DNA of 64,000 nt from Loktanella sp. SALINAS62 (GTDB lineage Bacteria; Pseudomonadota; Alphaproteobacteria; Rhodobacterales; Rhodobacteraceae), in assembly GCF_018263905.1 (NCBI RefSeq), contig NZ_JAAFZU010000055.1, forward strand, positions 491,818-555,817, read 5' to 3'. The position numbers were made by a program, and so were the translations under genes. Shown here piece after piece: positions 52,538 through 58,561 of this stretch. Below the pieces are notes generated by a model. It was not told the DNA's origin and ran no database searches. It was given only the letters and a program-made list of their open reading frames with translations. The first letter of the stretch is position 1; each line of letters starts with the position of its first letter.

Positions 52538-52744
52538 ATGCCCACCGGCAAAGTAAAATGGTTCAACACCGCCAAAGGTTTCGGTTTCATCGCCCCCGAT
52601 GATGGTGGAAACGATATCTTTGTTCATATTTCAGCGGTTGAACGCGCCGGCATGACCGGCCTTGCGGACGATCAGCCGATCGGTTTTGAACTGATCGAAG
52701 GCCGCGATGGTCGCACGATGGCGGGCGAGCTTTACAAGCCCTAA
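52538..52744 (+). CDS. Cold-shock domain protein (CspA family)
   Basis: 68 aa. TGKVKWFNTAKGFGFIAPDD is RNP-1 and FVHISAVERAG is RNP-2 of the cold-shock domain; a full single five-stranded barrel is present. It binds single-stranded nucleic acid and melts mRNA structure. The gene has a ~133-base leader upstream, long enough for the structured 5' UTR common in csp genes, and GGAGACAAGAC precedes the ATG. Its TAA is interleaved with the folA stop (CTAA). Confidence 0.95.
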   Translation: MPTGKVKWFNTAKGFGFIAPDDGGNDIFVHISAVERAGMTGLADDQPIGFELIEGRDGRTMAGELYKP

Positions 52745-53223
52745 AATCTGACCCGCAGATATTCATCAAGCCGGCAGGCGGGGTCCGCCTGCCGGATCCT
52801 ACGCGTTGCAATGCGGTTCCACTGATTGGGATCAATGTCGGGGAAATGCGTGTCGGCATCCGGCACCGTCACATCGACCTGCGTGATCAGCAACCTGTCC
52901 GCCACCGGCAACAAGGCCGCATAAATCCCTGCCCCACCGATTCCATAGATGCGATGATATCCTGCGGCATAGCACGCGGCAACCGCCTGTTCGGTGTCGC
53001 CAAAGACATGATCGGTCAGTGTTGTGTCACGGGACACCACACAATTCATCCGGTTTTTCAGCGGCTTGACCGGCAGGCTGACCCAGGTGTTACGGCCCAT
53101 GATCACCGCCCCGCCTGTCGTTTCGCGTTGAAACATGGCAAGATCTTCGGGCGCGTGCCACGGAATTTCGCCGTTGCGCCCGATGGCACCGTCATTGGCG
53201 CGTGCAACAATCAACGTCAGCAT
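52741..53223 (-). CDS. folA: Dihydrofolate reductase
   Basis: 160 aa, starting [22 protein letters not shown] (Asn/Ile/Trp of the folate pocket), with HAPEDLAMFQRETTGGAVIMGRNTW and GGAGIYAALLPVADRLLITQV. It reduces dihydrofolate produced by ThyA to tetrahydrofolate using NADPH. Start overlaps the thyA stop by one base (TGATG), giving translational coupling. Confidence 0.95.
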   Translation of the reverse strand: MLTLIVARANDGAIGRNGEIPWHAPEDLAMFQRETTGGAVIMGRNTWVSLPVKPLKNRMNCVVSRDTTLTDHVFGDTEQAVAACYAAGYHRIYGIGGAGIYAALLPVADRLLITQVDVTVPDADTHFPDIDPNQWNRIATRRIRQADPACRLDEYLRVRF

Positions 53224-54041
53224 CAGACAGCCACCGGCGCGCGGATCCCAGGGTCAGGGTCGTATCCGTCAAAGGCGAAATCGTCGAACCTAAAATCGAA
53301 AATGCTGTCGACGGCGCGGGTCAACCGCAGTGTCGGCAACGGCTTTGGCCTGCGCGACAGCTGCAAATTCACCTGATTCATGTGGTTCAGATAAATATGG
53401 GCATCCCCGATGGTGTGAATGAAATCGCCCGGCGCATAGCCTGTGACATGCGCCAACATATGCGCCAGCAAAGCATAGGACGCGATGTTGAAAGGCACCC
53501 CCAGAAACATGTCGGCGGACCGTTGATAAAGCTGCAAATGCAGCTTGCCGTCGCTGATCCGGACCTGCCACAGCGTATGACAGGGGGGCAACGCCATGGC
53601 ATCCATCTCTGCCGGGTTCCAGGCGGATACGATCAGGCGGCGGCTGTCAGGCGTTTTGCGGATTGCATCGACGAGGCGGGCGATCTGATCGACCTCTCCC
53701 AGCAGCAGGGTGCCGTCGTCGGCTGCAGCCACGCTGGGAAAATGCCGCCATTGGTGGCCGTAAACCGGGCCAAGGTCGCCATTTTCGTCCGCCCATTCAT
53801 CCCAGATCGATACACCGTTTTGCTGCAAATAGCGCACATTCGTGTCCCCGGACAAGAACCACAGCAATTCATGCACAATGGATTTCAGATGCAGTTTTTT
53901 CGTCGTCACCAGCGGAAAACCGTCCACCAGCGGATAGCGGCACTGCATGCCGAAATGGCTGATGGTGCCCGTGCCGGTGCGGTCGGTTGACCGCACGCCG
54001 TGATCCAGAACGGTGCGCAGCGCGTCATGGTATTGGTGCAA
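53223..54041 (-). CDS. thyA: Thymidylate synthase
   Basis: 272 aa. The catalytic Cys154 lies in [11 protein letters not shown]; other ThyA features are [14 protein letters not shown] (dUMP-binding loop), [18 protein letters not shown] and [14 protein letters not shown]. It makes dTMP from dUMP using methylene-THF, supplying dihydrofolate to FolA encoded immediately downstream. Slightly longer than the 264-aa enterobacterial enzyme because of an insert after residue ~102. Presence of thyA rather than thyX fits a FolA-dependent folate cycle. Confidence 0.96.
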
Positions 54042-54167: not shown

Positions 54168-54196
54168 TTGACTCAGACAAATGCGACTTGGACAAT
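54168..54196 (+). promoter_or_regulatory. Candidate promoter of the lipoprotein/Slam-like operon
   Basis: TTGACT and GACAAT separated by exactly 17 bases, 35 bases before the ATG at 54232. The -35 box matches the sigma-70 consensus at four to five positions, the -10 box at four. This is one of the better promoter candidates in the window. Confidence 0.45.
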
Positions 54197-54231
54197 GCAG
54201 CAATAATACGACCAGAGCAGGTGGCGCAACG

Positions 54232-55242
54232 ATGATCCGAATTTTGACCGTGGTGTCCGCACTGACGTTCCTTGCTGCTTGTGGTGACGGACAACCCTTG
54301 ATCGACACGCCTGCACCAAAAGGCGCAGACGACGCGGATCTGGACCTGCCACCCGGCACGGAAAACGTCACAGCATCATCGGACATCTTTCGCTTCGAAG
54401 CACCAAACGACGACGGCGGCGGTCTGGTCACTGACGTTTCCTATAACGCGAAAAACGATACGTTCAGCGTTGATAACCTTGGGTTCGATGGTGAAAATGT
54501 TTACAGTCGCAAAGCGGCGCCGCTTGCCTCATTGGGCAGCACGCGGATCTACGAGGCCGACGTAGAGGTCGAGGATTTCCTGACCGGTGACGCCGTCGGG
54601 CAGATCGTGCCCTATATCGCGCTTTACGGGGTCAGCAAGACAAAGGTCGGGGACGAACCGCAGACCAGTTTCGCGATCGTCAGAACCGGCGGTTACGCCG
54701 GTTATGGATTCGGTGGTTTCGTTTATGAACGCAACGGCGGCACCGTGCTGCCAAGCGCAGGGCAAGCGACGTTTTCGGGCGATTATGCGGGGGTCCGTGT
54801 GTTTGCACCGTCGCGCAGCACGATTGAATATGTCACCGGTGATATGACGATTGATATCGATTTCGAGGATTTCAACGCCAATGATGCTGTCAAAGGCCGG
54901 ATCACCGATCGTCGCATTTTTGACGAAGACGGGGTTCGGATCGTGACAGGGTTCGATGATGGCGATCTGCAGACGCCAAACGTGAATATCATCATCAGAG
55001 AAGGGACAAAGTCGCTGAGCTCTGCCGGGGAAATCGAAGTCAGCCTGAACAATTTCATCCGTGACGAAGACGGCAAGCTGGTTCAATACGAAACTGGCAA
55101 ATTTACCGGGATCGTCGCGGGCGACACGACCAAAGGAGATGGCGGCCAGATCGTCGGGATCGTCGTGCTGGATTCCGAAGATCCCCGTTTCGATGGAGAC
55201 ATCACGGTCAAGGAAACCGGTGGCGCGATACTTTACCGATGA
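54232..55242 (+). CDS. Surface-lipoprotein candidate with C-terminal TbpB-like beta barrel
   Basis: 336 aa. Signal and lipobox MIRILTVVSALTFLAACGDG place a lipidated Cys at 19. Residues ~30-60 are a flexible, acidic linker. The rest is beta-rich, and the last ~190 residues contain GQATFSGDYAGVRVF followed by TGDMTIDIDFEDF and GGQIVGIVVLDSE, a pattern like the eight-stranded handle barrel of transferrin-binding protein B-like surface lipoproteins. The gene overlaps the Slam-like gene by ATGA, as in type XI secretion cargo/translocator pairs. No ligand motif is seen; cargo function is unknown. Confidence 0.8.
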   Translation: MIRILTVVSALTFLAACGDGQPLIDTPAPKGADDADLDLPPGTENVTASSDIFRFEAPNDDGGGLVTDVSYNAKNDTFSVDNLGFDGENVYSRKAAPLASLGSTRIYEADVEVEDFLTGDAVGQIVPYIALYGVSKTKVGDEPQTSFAIVRTGGYAGYGFGGFVYERNGGTVLPSAGQATFSGDYAGVRVFAPSRSTIEYVTGDMTIDIDFEDFNANDAVKGRITDRRIFDEDGVRIVTGFDDGDLQTPNVNIIIREGTKSLSSAGEIEVSLNNFIRDEDGKLVQYETGKFTGIVAGDTTKGDGGQIVGIVVLDSEDPRFDGDITVKETGGAILYR

Positions 55243-56651
55243 TACGTTTTTGTGCCTTCGCGGCGGCCCTGCTTCTTTTGCCCTTGGCGGCACAGGCACA
55301 TGACGCGCAACTGAGCGTCGATCAGACCCGTGCGCTGGCCATTGATCTGGCGAATGCCGGTGATCTTGCCGCGTCGCAAACTGTGCTGGATGCACTGCTG
55401 GCACGCGATGCGCGCGATGTGACGGCGCTGATTACCGCAGCCCGCATTGCGTTGGCGCAGAACCGACAGGACGATGCTGTCACGCTGGGGGCACGCGCAT
55501 ATCGTGCGTCGCAGGACAGCGTTGAATCCTATGTTGCAGCCCGGCTGGTCGCGCGCGCGCATGTCGAACAACGCAATGACAGCCGCGCACAGCTTTGGCT
55601 GCGCCGCGCCCGTCAATACGCCCCAGATGCCGAAACCGCCGCCGGGGTCGCCGAAGACTATGCCTTTGTCCGCGACCGCAACCCGCTATCGCTTGACCTG
55701 ACATTCGGCCTTCGCCCGTCGTCCAACATCAACAACGGATCGCAATCGGAAGAAGCGTTCCTGTTGGGCCTGCCGTTTGCCCTGACCTTGTCACGCGACG
55801 CACAAGCGCTGTCTGGGCTGGCCTATAATCTAGGCGCAACGGGCCGCTGGCGGTTCCGCGAAAACGCAACATCTGCCACCTTTGCCGATATCAGCATCGA
55901 TGCGACGACCTATACGCTAAGCCGGGACGCGCGCGACGATCTGGAAGCAGAAGCACGCGCGGAAGACGCGTCCGGCGACATCGACAGCGCCGCCGCCCTG
56001 CGCGACATCGAAGGCAGCGATTACGGGTTCACGCAGCTGTCCTTTGGCCTGACGCACCGGGTTCAACTGACGCCTGATCTGTTGCCGACCACGCTGGCCG
56101 CGCGCATCGGAACCAGTTGGTATGGCGGCGATCCTTATCAACATCTGATCGATGTCAGTGCCGGGCAATCGCTGGCGACCAGCCAACGGTCACGCCTGCG
56201 CCTGACCGCAGGGGCGCAAAAGCAATTTGCGGACGACAGTTTTGACGATGTGACAAGCTTTCGTGTCGGTGCGACCTACAGCTATGTCCTGAATTGGGGG
56301 GATCTGGTGGCGGTGTCGGTCAACAACCGCGTCAGCCAGTCCGACAACGTGGAACGCGATTTTACGGCACTGCGGCTGGGGTTGGATTACGACCTGACCG
56401 AACCGGTGTTCGGGGTCCGCTTGGCATTTGGTGTGTCGGTCGAAAACCGTGGCTACGACTTTTCGCGCCTGAACGCGGGGCCACGCGACGATCTGACTGT
56501 GGATGCCAGGGTCAGCGCGCAATTCAGCCAAGTGGAATACTATGGCTTCCAGCCTGTCGGCACGCTGGAAATCAGCCGCACCAGTTCAGACAACGCGCTG
56601 TTTGACCGGGAATATATCAGCCTTGGATTTGATCTGCGGTCTGCGTTCTGA
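55239..56651 (+). CDS. Slam-like (DUF560) outer-membrane translocator
   Basis: 470 aa. A signal peptide (MIRFCAFAAALLLLPLAAQA) precedes an N-terminal periplasmic TPR domain (about residues 30-145; ALAIDLANAGDLAASQTVLD and LVARAHVEQRNDSRAQLWLR). From ~160 on, about fourteen amphipathic strands form a beta barrel ending in ISRTSSDNALFDREYISLGF and a terminal Phe, the outer-membrane insertion signal. TPR + DUF560 barrel with this end motif is the Slam architecture that moves lipoproteins to the cell surface (type XI secretion). Coupled to its likely cargo by ATGA. Function inferred from architecture only. Confidence 0.82.
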   Translation: MIRFCAFAAALLLLPLAAQAHDAQLSVDQTRALAIDLANAGDLAASQTVLDALLARDARDVTALITAARIALAQNRQDDAVTLGARAYRASQDSVESYVAARLVARAHVEQRNDSRAQLWLRRARQYAPDAETAAGVAEDYAFVRDRNPLSLDLTFGLRPSSNINNGSQSEEAFLLGLPFALTLSRDAQALSGLAYNLGATGRWRFRENATSATFADISIDATTYTLSRDARDDLEAEARAEDASGDIDSAAALRDIEGSDYGFTQLSFGLTHRVQLTPDLLPTTLAARIGTSWYGGDPYQHLIDVSAGQSLATSQRSRLRLTAGAQKQFADDSFDDVTSFRVGATYSYVLNWGDLVAVSVNNRVSQSDNVERDFTALRLGLDYDLTEPVFGVRLAFGVSVENRGYDFSRLNAGPRDDLTVDARVSAQFSQVEYYGFQPVGTLEISRTSSDNALFDREYISLGFDLRSAF

Positions 56652-56712: not shown

Positions 56713-57141
56713 ATGCCTGTTAAGTATCTGCACACGATGGTCCGGGTAAAAGACCTGGAAAAGACGATGACCTTTTTCAACCTGCTGGGCCTGCGCGAAA
56801 TCCGCCGCCGCGATGACGAAGGCGGTCGGTTTTCGCTGATCTTCATGGCGGCCGAAGGGGACGAAGATTGCCCTGTCGAACTGACCTACAACTGGGATGG
56901 CGACGATGCCCTGCCCGATGACAGCCGCCATTTCGGCCATCTCGCCTATAGCGTGCCCAACATCTATGAGATGTGTCAGCACCTGATGGACAACGGCGTG
57001 ACGATCAACCGTCCGCCACGTGACGGCAACATGGCGTTCGTGCGGTCGCCCGACAACATCTCGATTGAGCTGTTGCAGGACGGCGACGCGCTGGCCCCGG
57101 CAGAGCCGTGGAAAAGCATGGAAAACACAGGGCACTGGTAA
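56713..57141 (+). CDS. gloA: Glyoxalase I (lactoylglutathione lyase) / VOC protein
   Basis: The 142-aa VOC protein starts MPVKYLHTMVRVKDLEKTMTFF and has LELTYNWD-type strand (VELTYNWDGDD), FGHLAYSVPNIYEMC and SPDNISIELLQ, which supply the His/Glu metal ligands of glyoxalase I. It converts the methylglyoxal-glutathione hemithioacetal to lactoylglutathione. AGGAAGAACA precedes the ATG. Its TAA shares an A with the ATG of the DUF1194 gene, so the three genes to 58561 are probably one transcript. Confidence 0.85.
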   Translation: MPVKYLHTMVRVKDLEKTMTFFNLLGLREIRRRDDEGGRFSLIFMAAEGDEDCPVELTYNWDGDDALPDDSRHFGHLAYSVPNIYEMCQHLMDNGVTINRPPRDGNMAFVRSPDNISIELLQDGDALAPAEPWKSMENTGHW

Positions 57142-57836
57142 TGCAATGGGGGTTGATCGCAGGGCTGACCCTTGCGGCGGCCCCCGCAGATGCCTGTCGG
57201 CTTGCGCTGGTCTTGGCCATCGATGTGTCGTCGTCGGTCGATGCGGCAGAGGATGCATTGCAGCGTCAGGGGCTTGCGGCAGCGCTGCTCGCCCCCGATG
57301 TGCAATCCGCTTTTTTCGCGTCGCCTGATCCCGTGGCATTGCATGTCTTCGAATGGTCAGGCCGGTACAATCAGGTCACGCTGTCCGACTGGCGTCTGAT
57401 CGAAGCGCCCGACGATCTGCGGATGGTCGCAGACGCCGTATCCACCAGCACACGCAGTTATGACGATTACCCGACCGCCCTTGGCTATGCGCTAGGACAT
57501 GCGGCGGTGGTGTTGCAACGCGGCCCGGATTGCCTGTTCAAGACGATCGACGTCGCCGGTGACGGCATCAACAATGAAGGTTTCGGTCCGGCAGAAGCCT
57601 ATGCCGCCTTTCCGTTTCGGAATGTGACGGTAAACGGGTTGATCGTGAACGCCGCCGATTACGAAGGCGAGGTCAATCTGATCCCGTTCTACACCGAAGA
57701 GGTGATCCGCGGTCCCGGTGCCTTTGTCGAAATTGCCAACAGCTTTGCCGATTACGAAGCCGCGATGCGCCGCAAACTGGTGCGTGAACTGGGCGTGCAG
57801 ATGTTGGGCGGGGTGCCGTCGGGCGCGTCGGGATGA
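57141..57836 (+). CDS. Exported DUF1194 protein (von Willebrand A-like), copy 1
   Basis: 231 aa. A signal sequence (MQWGLIAGLTLAAAPADA) is followed by LVLAIDVSSSVDAAED, a DxSxS MIDAS metal-binding site, and the DUF1194 hallmarks HVFEWSGRYNQV, TIDVAGDGINNEG and EVIRGPGAFVEIANSFADY near the end. The fold is that of vWA domains, which bind metal and partner proteins; the periplasmic partner is unknown. It overlaps the glyoxalase stop (TAATG) and is followed by a paralogue overlapping by ATGA. Confidence 0.88.
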   Translation: MQWGLIAGLTLAAAPADACRLALVLAIDVSSSVDAAEDALQRQGLAAALLAPDVQSAFFASPDPVALHVFEWSGRYNQVTLSDWRLIEAPDDLRMVADAVSTSTRSYDDYPTALGYALGHAAVVLQRGPDCLFKTIDVAGDGINNEGFGPAEAYAAFPFRNVTVNGLIVNAADYEGEVNLIPFYTEEVIRGPGAFVEIANSFADYEAAMRRKLVRELGVQMLGGVPSGASG

Positions 57837-58561
57837 GGTGGCTGGCCACCGTACTGGTGGTGATGCTGGGCCTTCCGGCGGATGCCGCCTGCCGTCAGGC
57901 GCTAGCGATGGGTCTGGATGTCAGCGGATCTGTCGATGACACCGAATACAGGTTGCAGCGCGACGGTCTGGCAGACGCATTGGGCCGCGACGCTGTGCAG
58001 CGCGTGTTACTGGACAGCGGCGCGCCCGTCCGGATCACCGTTTTTGAATGGAGCGGGCAGAACGATCAGGCGGTTCTGGTACCGTGGACCGCCATCACGG
58101 ACGCCCTTGTATTGGCCGCCCTGCAACAGCGCATCCGGTACGCGCCGCGCGGGGCCCTATCACCCACGACAGCGTTGGGGTCCGCGATGCTGACAGGGTT
58201 TGAACTGCTGGATAAACAAACCGATTGCTGGACGCGGACGCTGGATATTTCCGGCGATGGGCCGTCCAATACCGACCCACGCCCGCAGGATATCGGTATC
58301 GACCAAAGCCCTGCGGATGTCACGGTGAACGGCCTGACCATCGGCGCAGACACCACAATGGGCCATGACGAAAGCGCCGCTGATATCAAAGAGCTTTCGG
58401 CCTATTTCAAAACCTATGTGATCCGGGGGCCGGGCGCCTTTGTCGAAACGGCGCTGGGGTTTGCGGATTACGCCGACGCGATGGAACGCAAATTGCTGCG
58501 CGAACTACGTGCAGTTGGGCTAAGCGCGACACCAGCCACGTCAACGCAATCACCGTCGTGA
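57833..58561 (+). CDS. Exported DUF1194 protein (von Willebrand A-like), copy 2
   Basis: 242 aa. Similar to copy 1 throughout: signal sequence MRWLATVLVVMLGLPADA, MIDAS as LDVSGSVDDTEY, VFEWSGQNDQAV, LDISGDGPSNTDP and YVIRGPGAFVETALGFADYADAMERKLL. The tail after LRELRAV is Ser/Thr/Pro-rich. Tandem divergence suggests two subunits of one complex or duplicated partners. Ends before a perfect hairpin. Confidence 0.88.
   Translation: MRWLATVLVVMLGLPADAACRQALAMGLDVSGSVDDTEYRLQRDGLADALGRDAVQRVLLDSGAPVRITVFEWSGQNDQAVLVPWTAITDALVLAALQQRIRYAPRGALSPTTALGSAMLTGFELLDKQTDCWTRTLDISGDGPSNTDPRPQDIGIDQSPADVTVNGLTIGADTTMGHDESAADIKELSAYFKTYVIRGPGAFVETALGFADYADAMERKLLRELRAVGLSATPATSTQSPS

Follow-up and report, generated by a model that had tools for sequence, protein, structure and literature searches.

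Previous work has described the Slam exporters of Neisseria, which consist of two tetratricopeptide repeats (TPRs) and a predicted 14-stranded barrel (PMC7857515), and Slam1 has been described together with TbpB and the chaperone Skp (PMC9090332). A search for Slam proteins covered the alphaproteobacteria, but neither Rhodobacter nor any roseobacter is mentioned in the main text of that study (PMC5449769). Grossman et al. (2025) reported that one group of type XI secretion system (T11SS) outer membrane proteins (OMPs), cluster 3, is almost exclusive to Rhodobacteraceae and Roseobacteraceae (PMC12282271). Here we describe two adjoining genes of Loktanella sp. SALINAS62 that very probably form a translationally coupled T11SS/Slam operon of this marine cluster 3 kind, encoding an exporter and a surface lipoprotein. 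They lie in a stretch of 64,000 nucleotides (positions 491,818 to 555,817 of contig NZ_JAAFZU010000055.1, our C78, in an assembly of 3.83 Mb and 101 contigs), which we call the window.

According to the cluster 3 study, the same gene order with a structure-predicted cargo lipoprotein occurs in 10/11 strains, and TbpB-type domains were found at just 8/145 loci. Three readings were offered there: that cargo is seldom linked, that it has diverged too far for detection, or that function has changed (PMC12282271). The published locus contains a thymidylate synthase, a signal peptidase II-type cargo with a C-terminal eight-stranded barrel, the T11SS OMP, a lactoylglutathione lyase and DUF1194 (PMC12282271), all of which are shared by the window locus, where the same synteny is found. 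The window cargo has 336 aa, compared with 282-375 aa in cluster 3. The window carries thyA and dfrA where the loci of their Fig. 8 have the flavin-dependent thymidylate synthase gene thyX; thymidylate synthase and dihydrofolate reductase are also listed among cluster 3 neighbors (PMC12282271). We place the pair in cluster 3 by gene content and synteny. The pair therefore belongs to a kind already in print, and the proposal of a new branch, made in an initial annotation of the window from its letters, does not stand, because cluster 3 OMPs with the same gene order in these families had been described (PMC12282271). Our additions concern how widespread the linkage is, signs that the two partners may decay together, the finding that DUF1194 does not follow the pair, and barrel-only lipoproteins that are unlinked in Loktanella and linked in Silicimonas. 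The words unlinked, orphan and prfC are absent from the main text of PMC12282271, and the literature matches listed included no further study of T11SS in these bacteria.

The coupled lipoprotein and barrel protein

The pair and the sequence before it are as follows.

54232..55242, + strand: predicted T11SS cargo lipoprotein, 336 aa (sequence, model, Foldseek and family-level Pfam)
55239..56651, + strand: probable T11SS outer-membrane translocon (SlipAM/DUF560), 470 aa (SlipAM, model and distribution)
54168..54196, + strand: promoter-like hexamers, weak candidate (TTGACT-17-GACAAT, 9/12 matches)

The lipoprotein reading frame is open from 54181, and the ATG at 54232 positions a lipobox (LAAC, Cys17), as had been proposed; the frame stops at 55242. 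The barrel-protein gene starts at 55239, within the ATGA overlap that the initial annotation had read as coupling, and stops at 56651. The annotation had also placed a promoter candidate directly upstream. The hexamers are indeed there, but the region holds 2 promoter-like sites against 0.8 (sd 0.8) expected in shuffles, which is not clearly above chance, and we have set the promoter aside as a firm feature.

The second protein had been predicted to consist of a signal peptide, TPRs and a 14-strand barrel. Its start is hydrophobic and resembles a signal peptide by eye, and the AlphaFold2 model, made from an alignment of 49 sequences (pLDDT 92.0, pTM 0.82), has seven helices at 27-147, after which 14 long strands span 150-468; three helices are inserted at 229-262, between strands 3 and 4. 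The best match of the family profile in the Protein Data Bank (PDB) is an engineered TPR protein (E 1.1e-18); the TPR_16 match of the protein itself, at 24 bits, is under the 32.7 cut-off of that family. The proposed fit to Slam/DUF560 holds marginally, with SlipAM (PF04575) at 23.8 bits for a cut-off of 22. As for the C-terminus, the stretch quoted in the annotation is present and the final Phe was correct, but the protein is six residues longer and ends ...ISLGFDLRSAF. Its nearest named relatives, from two Loktanella strains, are 79% identical.

Pfam also returned ShlB (PF03865) at 23.7 bits, above its cut-off of 22.7, as would be expected if the barrel protein were a two-partner (TpsB/ShlB-type) transporter. 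However, ShlB is matched by 1/49 aligned members, namely the window protein, whereas SlipAM is matched by 26/49 (both at E≤1e-3). TpsB transporters have POTRA domains before a barrel of 16 strands, whereas the periplasmic part modeled here is helical and its barrel has 14. We consider a two-partner transporter extremely improbable.

Foldseek placed BcsC and PelB, polysaccharide exporters with TPRs, at the top for the barrel protein, and a PgaA cluster lies within DUF560 (PMC8406197). Both facts would suit an exopolysaccharide exporter of the PgaA/BcsC/PelB type, with the lipoprotein as its periplasmic partner. Yet the strand counts given for T11SS and PgaA are 14 and 16, respectively (PMC8406197), and the model has 14. 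In addition, a Pfam scan of eight neighboring genes detected no polysaccharide gene, and the lipoprotein resembles TbpB and HphA. Polysaccharide export is thus very unlikely.

The lipoprotein consists of the signal peptide and lipobox, an N-terminal 'handle' (~45-175) and an eight-stranded barrel (~178-335). In the model (pLDDT 87.8, pTM 0.85) all eight strands lie within residues 178-335, and one spans just four residues. The TbpB-like barrel that had been predicted is borne out by this model and by Foldseek, in which the first eight matches are TbpB or HphA: TbpB takes ranks 1-5, 7, 8 and 10, HphA of Vibrio harveyi rank 6, and HpuA follows at ranks 13-14 (best E 1e-4). Structure prediction, named in the annotation as a check, has therefore yielded both the TPR-type helices with a 14-strand barrel and the cargo barrel. 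Among 46 aligned cargos, the commonest two Pfam families at E≤0.1 are FHBP_C (15 members, best 2.7e-5) and TbpB_B_D (10 members, best 1.4e-4). Handle and barrel are about equally conserved, with a mean share of the commonest residue of 0.383 and 0.400, respectively, across the 46. No ligand was named by our searches or in the published account of cluster 3 (PMC12282271), in agreement with the annotated lack of a known ligand domain.

Like Neisseria Slam1 with TbpB or LbpB, which belong to cluster 1, the window pair combines a TPR and 14-strand exporter (PMC7857515) with a lipidated cargo that has a C-terminal eight-stranded barrel. Unlike in the Neisseria systems, neither a TonB-dependent receptor nor an iron gene occurs among the eight scanned neighbors, similarity in sequence reaches Pfam thresholds at best, and the mature cargo has no histidine, which argues against histidine-held haem. 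Histidine after residue 20 is absent from the window cargo and from 13 of the other 45 aligned (14/46), and haem binding via a conserved histidine was rejected. This also bears on the hemophilins (HphA, HrpC), which the window cargo recalls through the Foldseek match to HphA; hemophilins are soluble, unlipidated cargo (PMC12282271), whereas the window cargo has a lipobox.

By its lipobox, and from general knowledge of such proteins, the lipoprotein would leave by the Sec route, receive its lipid at Cys17 and travel on to the outer membrane. If Neisseria Slam1 and TbpB are a guide, its C-terminal barrel would be the recognition domain, and the exporter, with its 14-strand barrel and periplasmic TPR helices, would hand the still unfolded lipoprotein across to the exterior, to remain lipid-anchored on the cell surface. 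The handle would then face outward and bind a putative ligand.

Linkage and co-occurrence of cargo and exporter

One named scan gave 63 exporter loci, which were sorted into categories by eye. In 57/63 the gene directly upstream of the exporter encodes a lipoprotein with a lipobox or matches the cargo profile, and the profile itself, built from nine sequences, matches 46/63 at E≤0.01. In three of the other six the cargo is cut by a contig edge (L035, L037, L051; L and G numbers are our handles for loci and genomes), one ends at a contig edge (L058), and two (L029, L064) have no upstream lipoprotein on the exporter strand. We conclude that, in this group, cargo is nearly always linked.

We then turned to 295 genomes of the family, from 294 genera, scoring the best exporter candidates (up to five) and cargo candidates (up to seven) in each. 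Matches to either profile were taken at E≤1e-10; both profiles derive from linked pairs and so favor this family. An exporter match was found in 164/295 genomes, which we divided into 141 strong (E≤1e-30) and 23 weak after the list had been inspected. The cargo profile matched in 132/141 genomes with a strong exporter, in 2/23 with a weak one and in 2/131 with none, as the annotation had expected of relatives (Fisher p 4.6e-51 for cargo with any exporter, the kinship of genomes being ignored). The co-occurrence in 132/141 genomes favors the second of the published readings, that cargo has diverged too far for detection (PMC12282271).

Nine strong-exporter genomes had no cargo-profile match. 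Contig ends or gaps interrupt the loci of G203 and G178. In G090 the exporter is shortened to 348 aa and in G183 it is split, and no cargo was seen in either. A barrel-only lipoprotein occupies the cargo position in G102, on the same contig as L061, and G163, like L064, has a divergent CAP-domain protein at the exporter. G277 has just a 67-residue frame with a weak match; the remaining two, G240 and G252, are considered below. The two genomes with cargo and no exporter match are G199, whose cargo lacks a recognizable C-terminal part, and G310, whose cargo looks intact. A broken exporter (G090, G183) or a truncated cargo (G199) where the partner is lost may reflect paired decay; assembly errors are the alternative.

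Cargo and exporter distances taken from the trees have a correlation of 0.794, a value reached in 0/2000 permutations, and the partial correlation is 0.789 given gloA (45 loci) and 0.772 given thyX (31 loci). The correlation of cargo with gloA is 0.14, gloA being short and its tree noisy; the exporter tree, too, resembles that of the cargo far more than that of gloA. Within the cargo, agreement with the exporter is slightly closer for the barrel (partials 0.264/0.192) than for the handle (0.077/0.123).

Several observations weigh against a T11SS pair. Verified T11SS exporters all belong to cluster 1 in the published account (PMC12282271), so that none of the marine cluster 3 proteins is known to be functional. 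Slam is absent from the best 50 Foldseek rows for the exporter. The window cargo itself has no Pfam match, its profile finds factor H-binding protein first in the PDB at an E of only 0.083, and its Foldseek TM-scores with TbpB and HphA are low (0.30-0.36 by query). An apparently intact exporter has no linked lipoprotein in G240 (beside thyX) and G252 (beside thyA and dfrA), and none in G007, which matches Loktanella fryxellensis (L029) and has thyX alongside. At the G310 locus the cargo is kept where there is no exporter; elsewhere this genome has another SlipAM protein adjoining a TbpB-like lipoprotein. Pfam, the structure models, the fold search, co-occurrence and the agreement of the trees together nevertheless back the type XI (Slam) pair first proposed in the annotation, and we hold to it with high confidence.

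We also tried TbpB_B_D as a marker of the exporter. It held for 13/13 among 41 relatives, but was rejected because 10/131 exporter-less genomes of the 295 have TbpB_B_D; three of these ten have another SlipAM protein above the cut-off and seven have none above it. Separately, a CAP-domain protein divergent to the exporter was observed at two exporters that stand in other contexts, in L064 (4294-4800, - strand, 70.3 bits, with a lipobox) and in L154 (2350-3231, + strand, 68.1 bits); it is possible that this is a different type of cargo.

Neighboring genes and DUF1194

In the window, dfrA and thyA (both -) are followed on the + strand by the lipoprotein, the barrel protein, a glyoxalase and two DUF1194 genes. 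The genes flanking the pair are these.

52741..53223, - strand: dfrA, dihydrofolate reductase, syntenic neighbor (PF00186)
53223..54041, - strand: thyA, thymidylate synthase, divergent syntenic neighbor, probably outside the mechanism (PF00303)
56713..57141, + strand: gloA, lactoylglutathione lyase/glyoxalase, syntenic neighbor (PF00903)
57108..57836, + strand: first DUF1194 protein, syntenic neighbor (PF06707, 226.6 bits; DxSxS motif by eye)
57833..58561, + strand: second DUF1194 protein, ATGA-coupled to the first, syntenic neighbor (PF06707, 205.9 bits)

Among 48 related loci whose flanks extend 3.5 kb or more in each direction, gloA occurs in 46, DUF1194 in 36, thyX in 32, and thyA and dfrA in 12 each. 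The frequency of DUF1194 (36/48 here, 102/145 cluster 3 loci in PMC12282271, where DUF1194 as cargo is one option raised) would be consistent with DUF1194 proteins being the true substrates and the lipoprotein an accessory. However, DUF1194 is present in six family relatives without any exporter match (G011, G012, G015, G017, G018, G024), and three relatives with the exporter (G016, G020, G023) have no full-length DUF1194 match. The adjacency of gloA and DUF1194 is kept in L090, L105 and L114, which have no strong exporter match, and at the exporter-less locus of G310. Moreover, 12/48 loci have no DUF1194 within reach and 11 of these 12 have cargo, and Pfam shows DUF1194 alone in these proteins, with no cargo barrel. 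We regard DUF1194 substrates as highly improbable, and DUF1194 as a functional partner was discarded since its presence at the genome level does not track the exporter. Because DUF1194 occurs without the exporter and is missing with some, and because gloA-DUF1194 persists without the pair, we read gloA, DUF1194 and the other neighbors as conserved synteny rather than as parts of the export mechanism.

On the other side of the pair, thyX and thyA with dfrA alternate at the same spot among loci L024-L086 (32 vs 12 of 48 loci). L027, from a Loktanella metagenome-assembled genome (MAG) outside the 48, is the sole one of the 63 loci with both, and looks like an intermediate of the swap.

Barrel-only lipoproteins

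Weak matches to the cargo profile pointed to three small lipoproteins of the window genome that adjoin prfC (named by eye). Proteins of this barrel-only kind have prfC as a neighbor both in the window genome and in two relatives (L117 1487-3660; L119, L118, L126-L131), and those inspected by eye, a subset, have a lipobox. The first seven all match TbpB_B_D under the curated cut-off (E 4.7e-5 to 0.033), six of them over nearly its full length; 4 of 13 distinct barrel-only proteins scanned match neither TbpB_B_D nor FHBP_C at E≤1. A profile built from three genomes of the genus, A6, finds lactoferrin-binding protein B (E 8.3e-6) and TbpB (E 2.5e-3) in the PDB; its alignment to the cargo profile falls in the C-terminal half of the latter (probability 91.6). 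At E≤0.01, A6 gives at least three unlinked matches in each of 9/9 sampled genus members, and just two marginal ones among 32 relatives outside the genus (G009 and G022, E about 0.0055). The nine include G007, in which the exporter without linked cargo is accompanied by three barrel-only matches.

Across the 63 exporter loci (3,096 reading frames), A6 has seven matches (E≤1e-3), all of them lipoproteins directly upstream of the exporter. The best, in L061 of a Silicimonas MAG (206 aa, 54 bits), has the size of a barrel-only protein, and the exporter starts 4 bases on; in Pfam this lipoprotein has only a weak FHBP_C match (E 0.014). This linkage ties the barrel-only family to T11SS exporters.

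That the unlinked Loktanella barrels use the window exporter is our inference. In Loktanella the exporter would probably also serve at least three small barrel-only lipoproteins encoded elsewhere, mainly beside prfC. We lean slightly toward the exporter of this genus being a hub that puts both its coupled cargo and dispersed barrel-only lipoproteins on the surface. The dispersed clients in the window genome would then be the three beside prfC and probably a fourth at G000:C3:125570-125929. This proposal is strengthened because G102/L061 has an exporter-coupled barrel-only lipoprotein and because A6 matches only exporter-linked lipoproteins in the 3,096 frames. If true, handle-less barrel-only cargo would be a class of T11SS client, which would explain how one species has the exporter without linked cargo. 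Such unlinked lipoproteins also allow testing whether the barrel alone suffices as an export signal.

A stronger claim would be that in some lineages, Loktanella included, the unlinked barrel-only lipoproteins are the main clients and linked cargo is dispensable. The matches in all nine sampled genus members, the lack of linked cargo in G007 and the barrel-only size of the linked Silicimonas lipoprotein fit this claim. However, linked cargo is kept in 8/9 genus members and its tree closely follows that of the exporter, and the barrels could use another surface route or remain inside. We therefore find this claim doubtful, and prefer an exporter that serves coupled and dispersed lipoproteins alike.

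TbpB_B_D proteins also lie apart from the exporter in other family members; in G009, 6/8 matches are on other contigs. That genome also has a divergent T11SS locus (L121 2255-5787), where the exporter is immediately preceded by two cargo lipoproteins that exceed the TbpB_B_D cut-off, at 29.4 and 32.1 bits. G317, with 12 TbpB_B_D matches and two exporter matches, has the most among the 50 genomes with a TbpB_B_D match. In the window genome, a further small lipoprotein near a transhydrogenase-like gene (L164 1954-2595, G000:C3) matches TbpB_B_D, at 26.8 bits when its in-frame neighbors are included. A search for plasmid-borne relatives of a second cargo-exporter pair in this genome gave one plasmid record at E≤1e-8, of 25.8% identity, and the idea was dropped. 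This second pair (L120 9207-11776, G000:C45), whose exporter is 35% identical, lies on a contig of 12.9 kb that also carries recombinase-, transposase- and relaxase-like genes (by eye).

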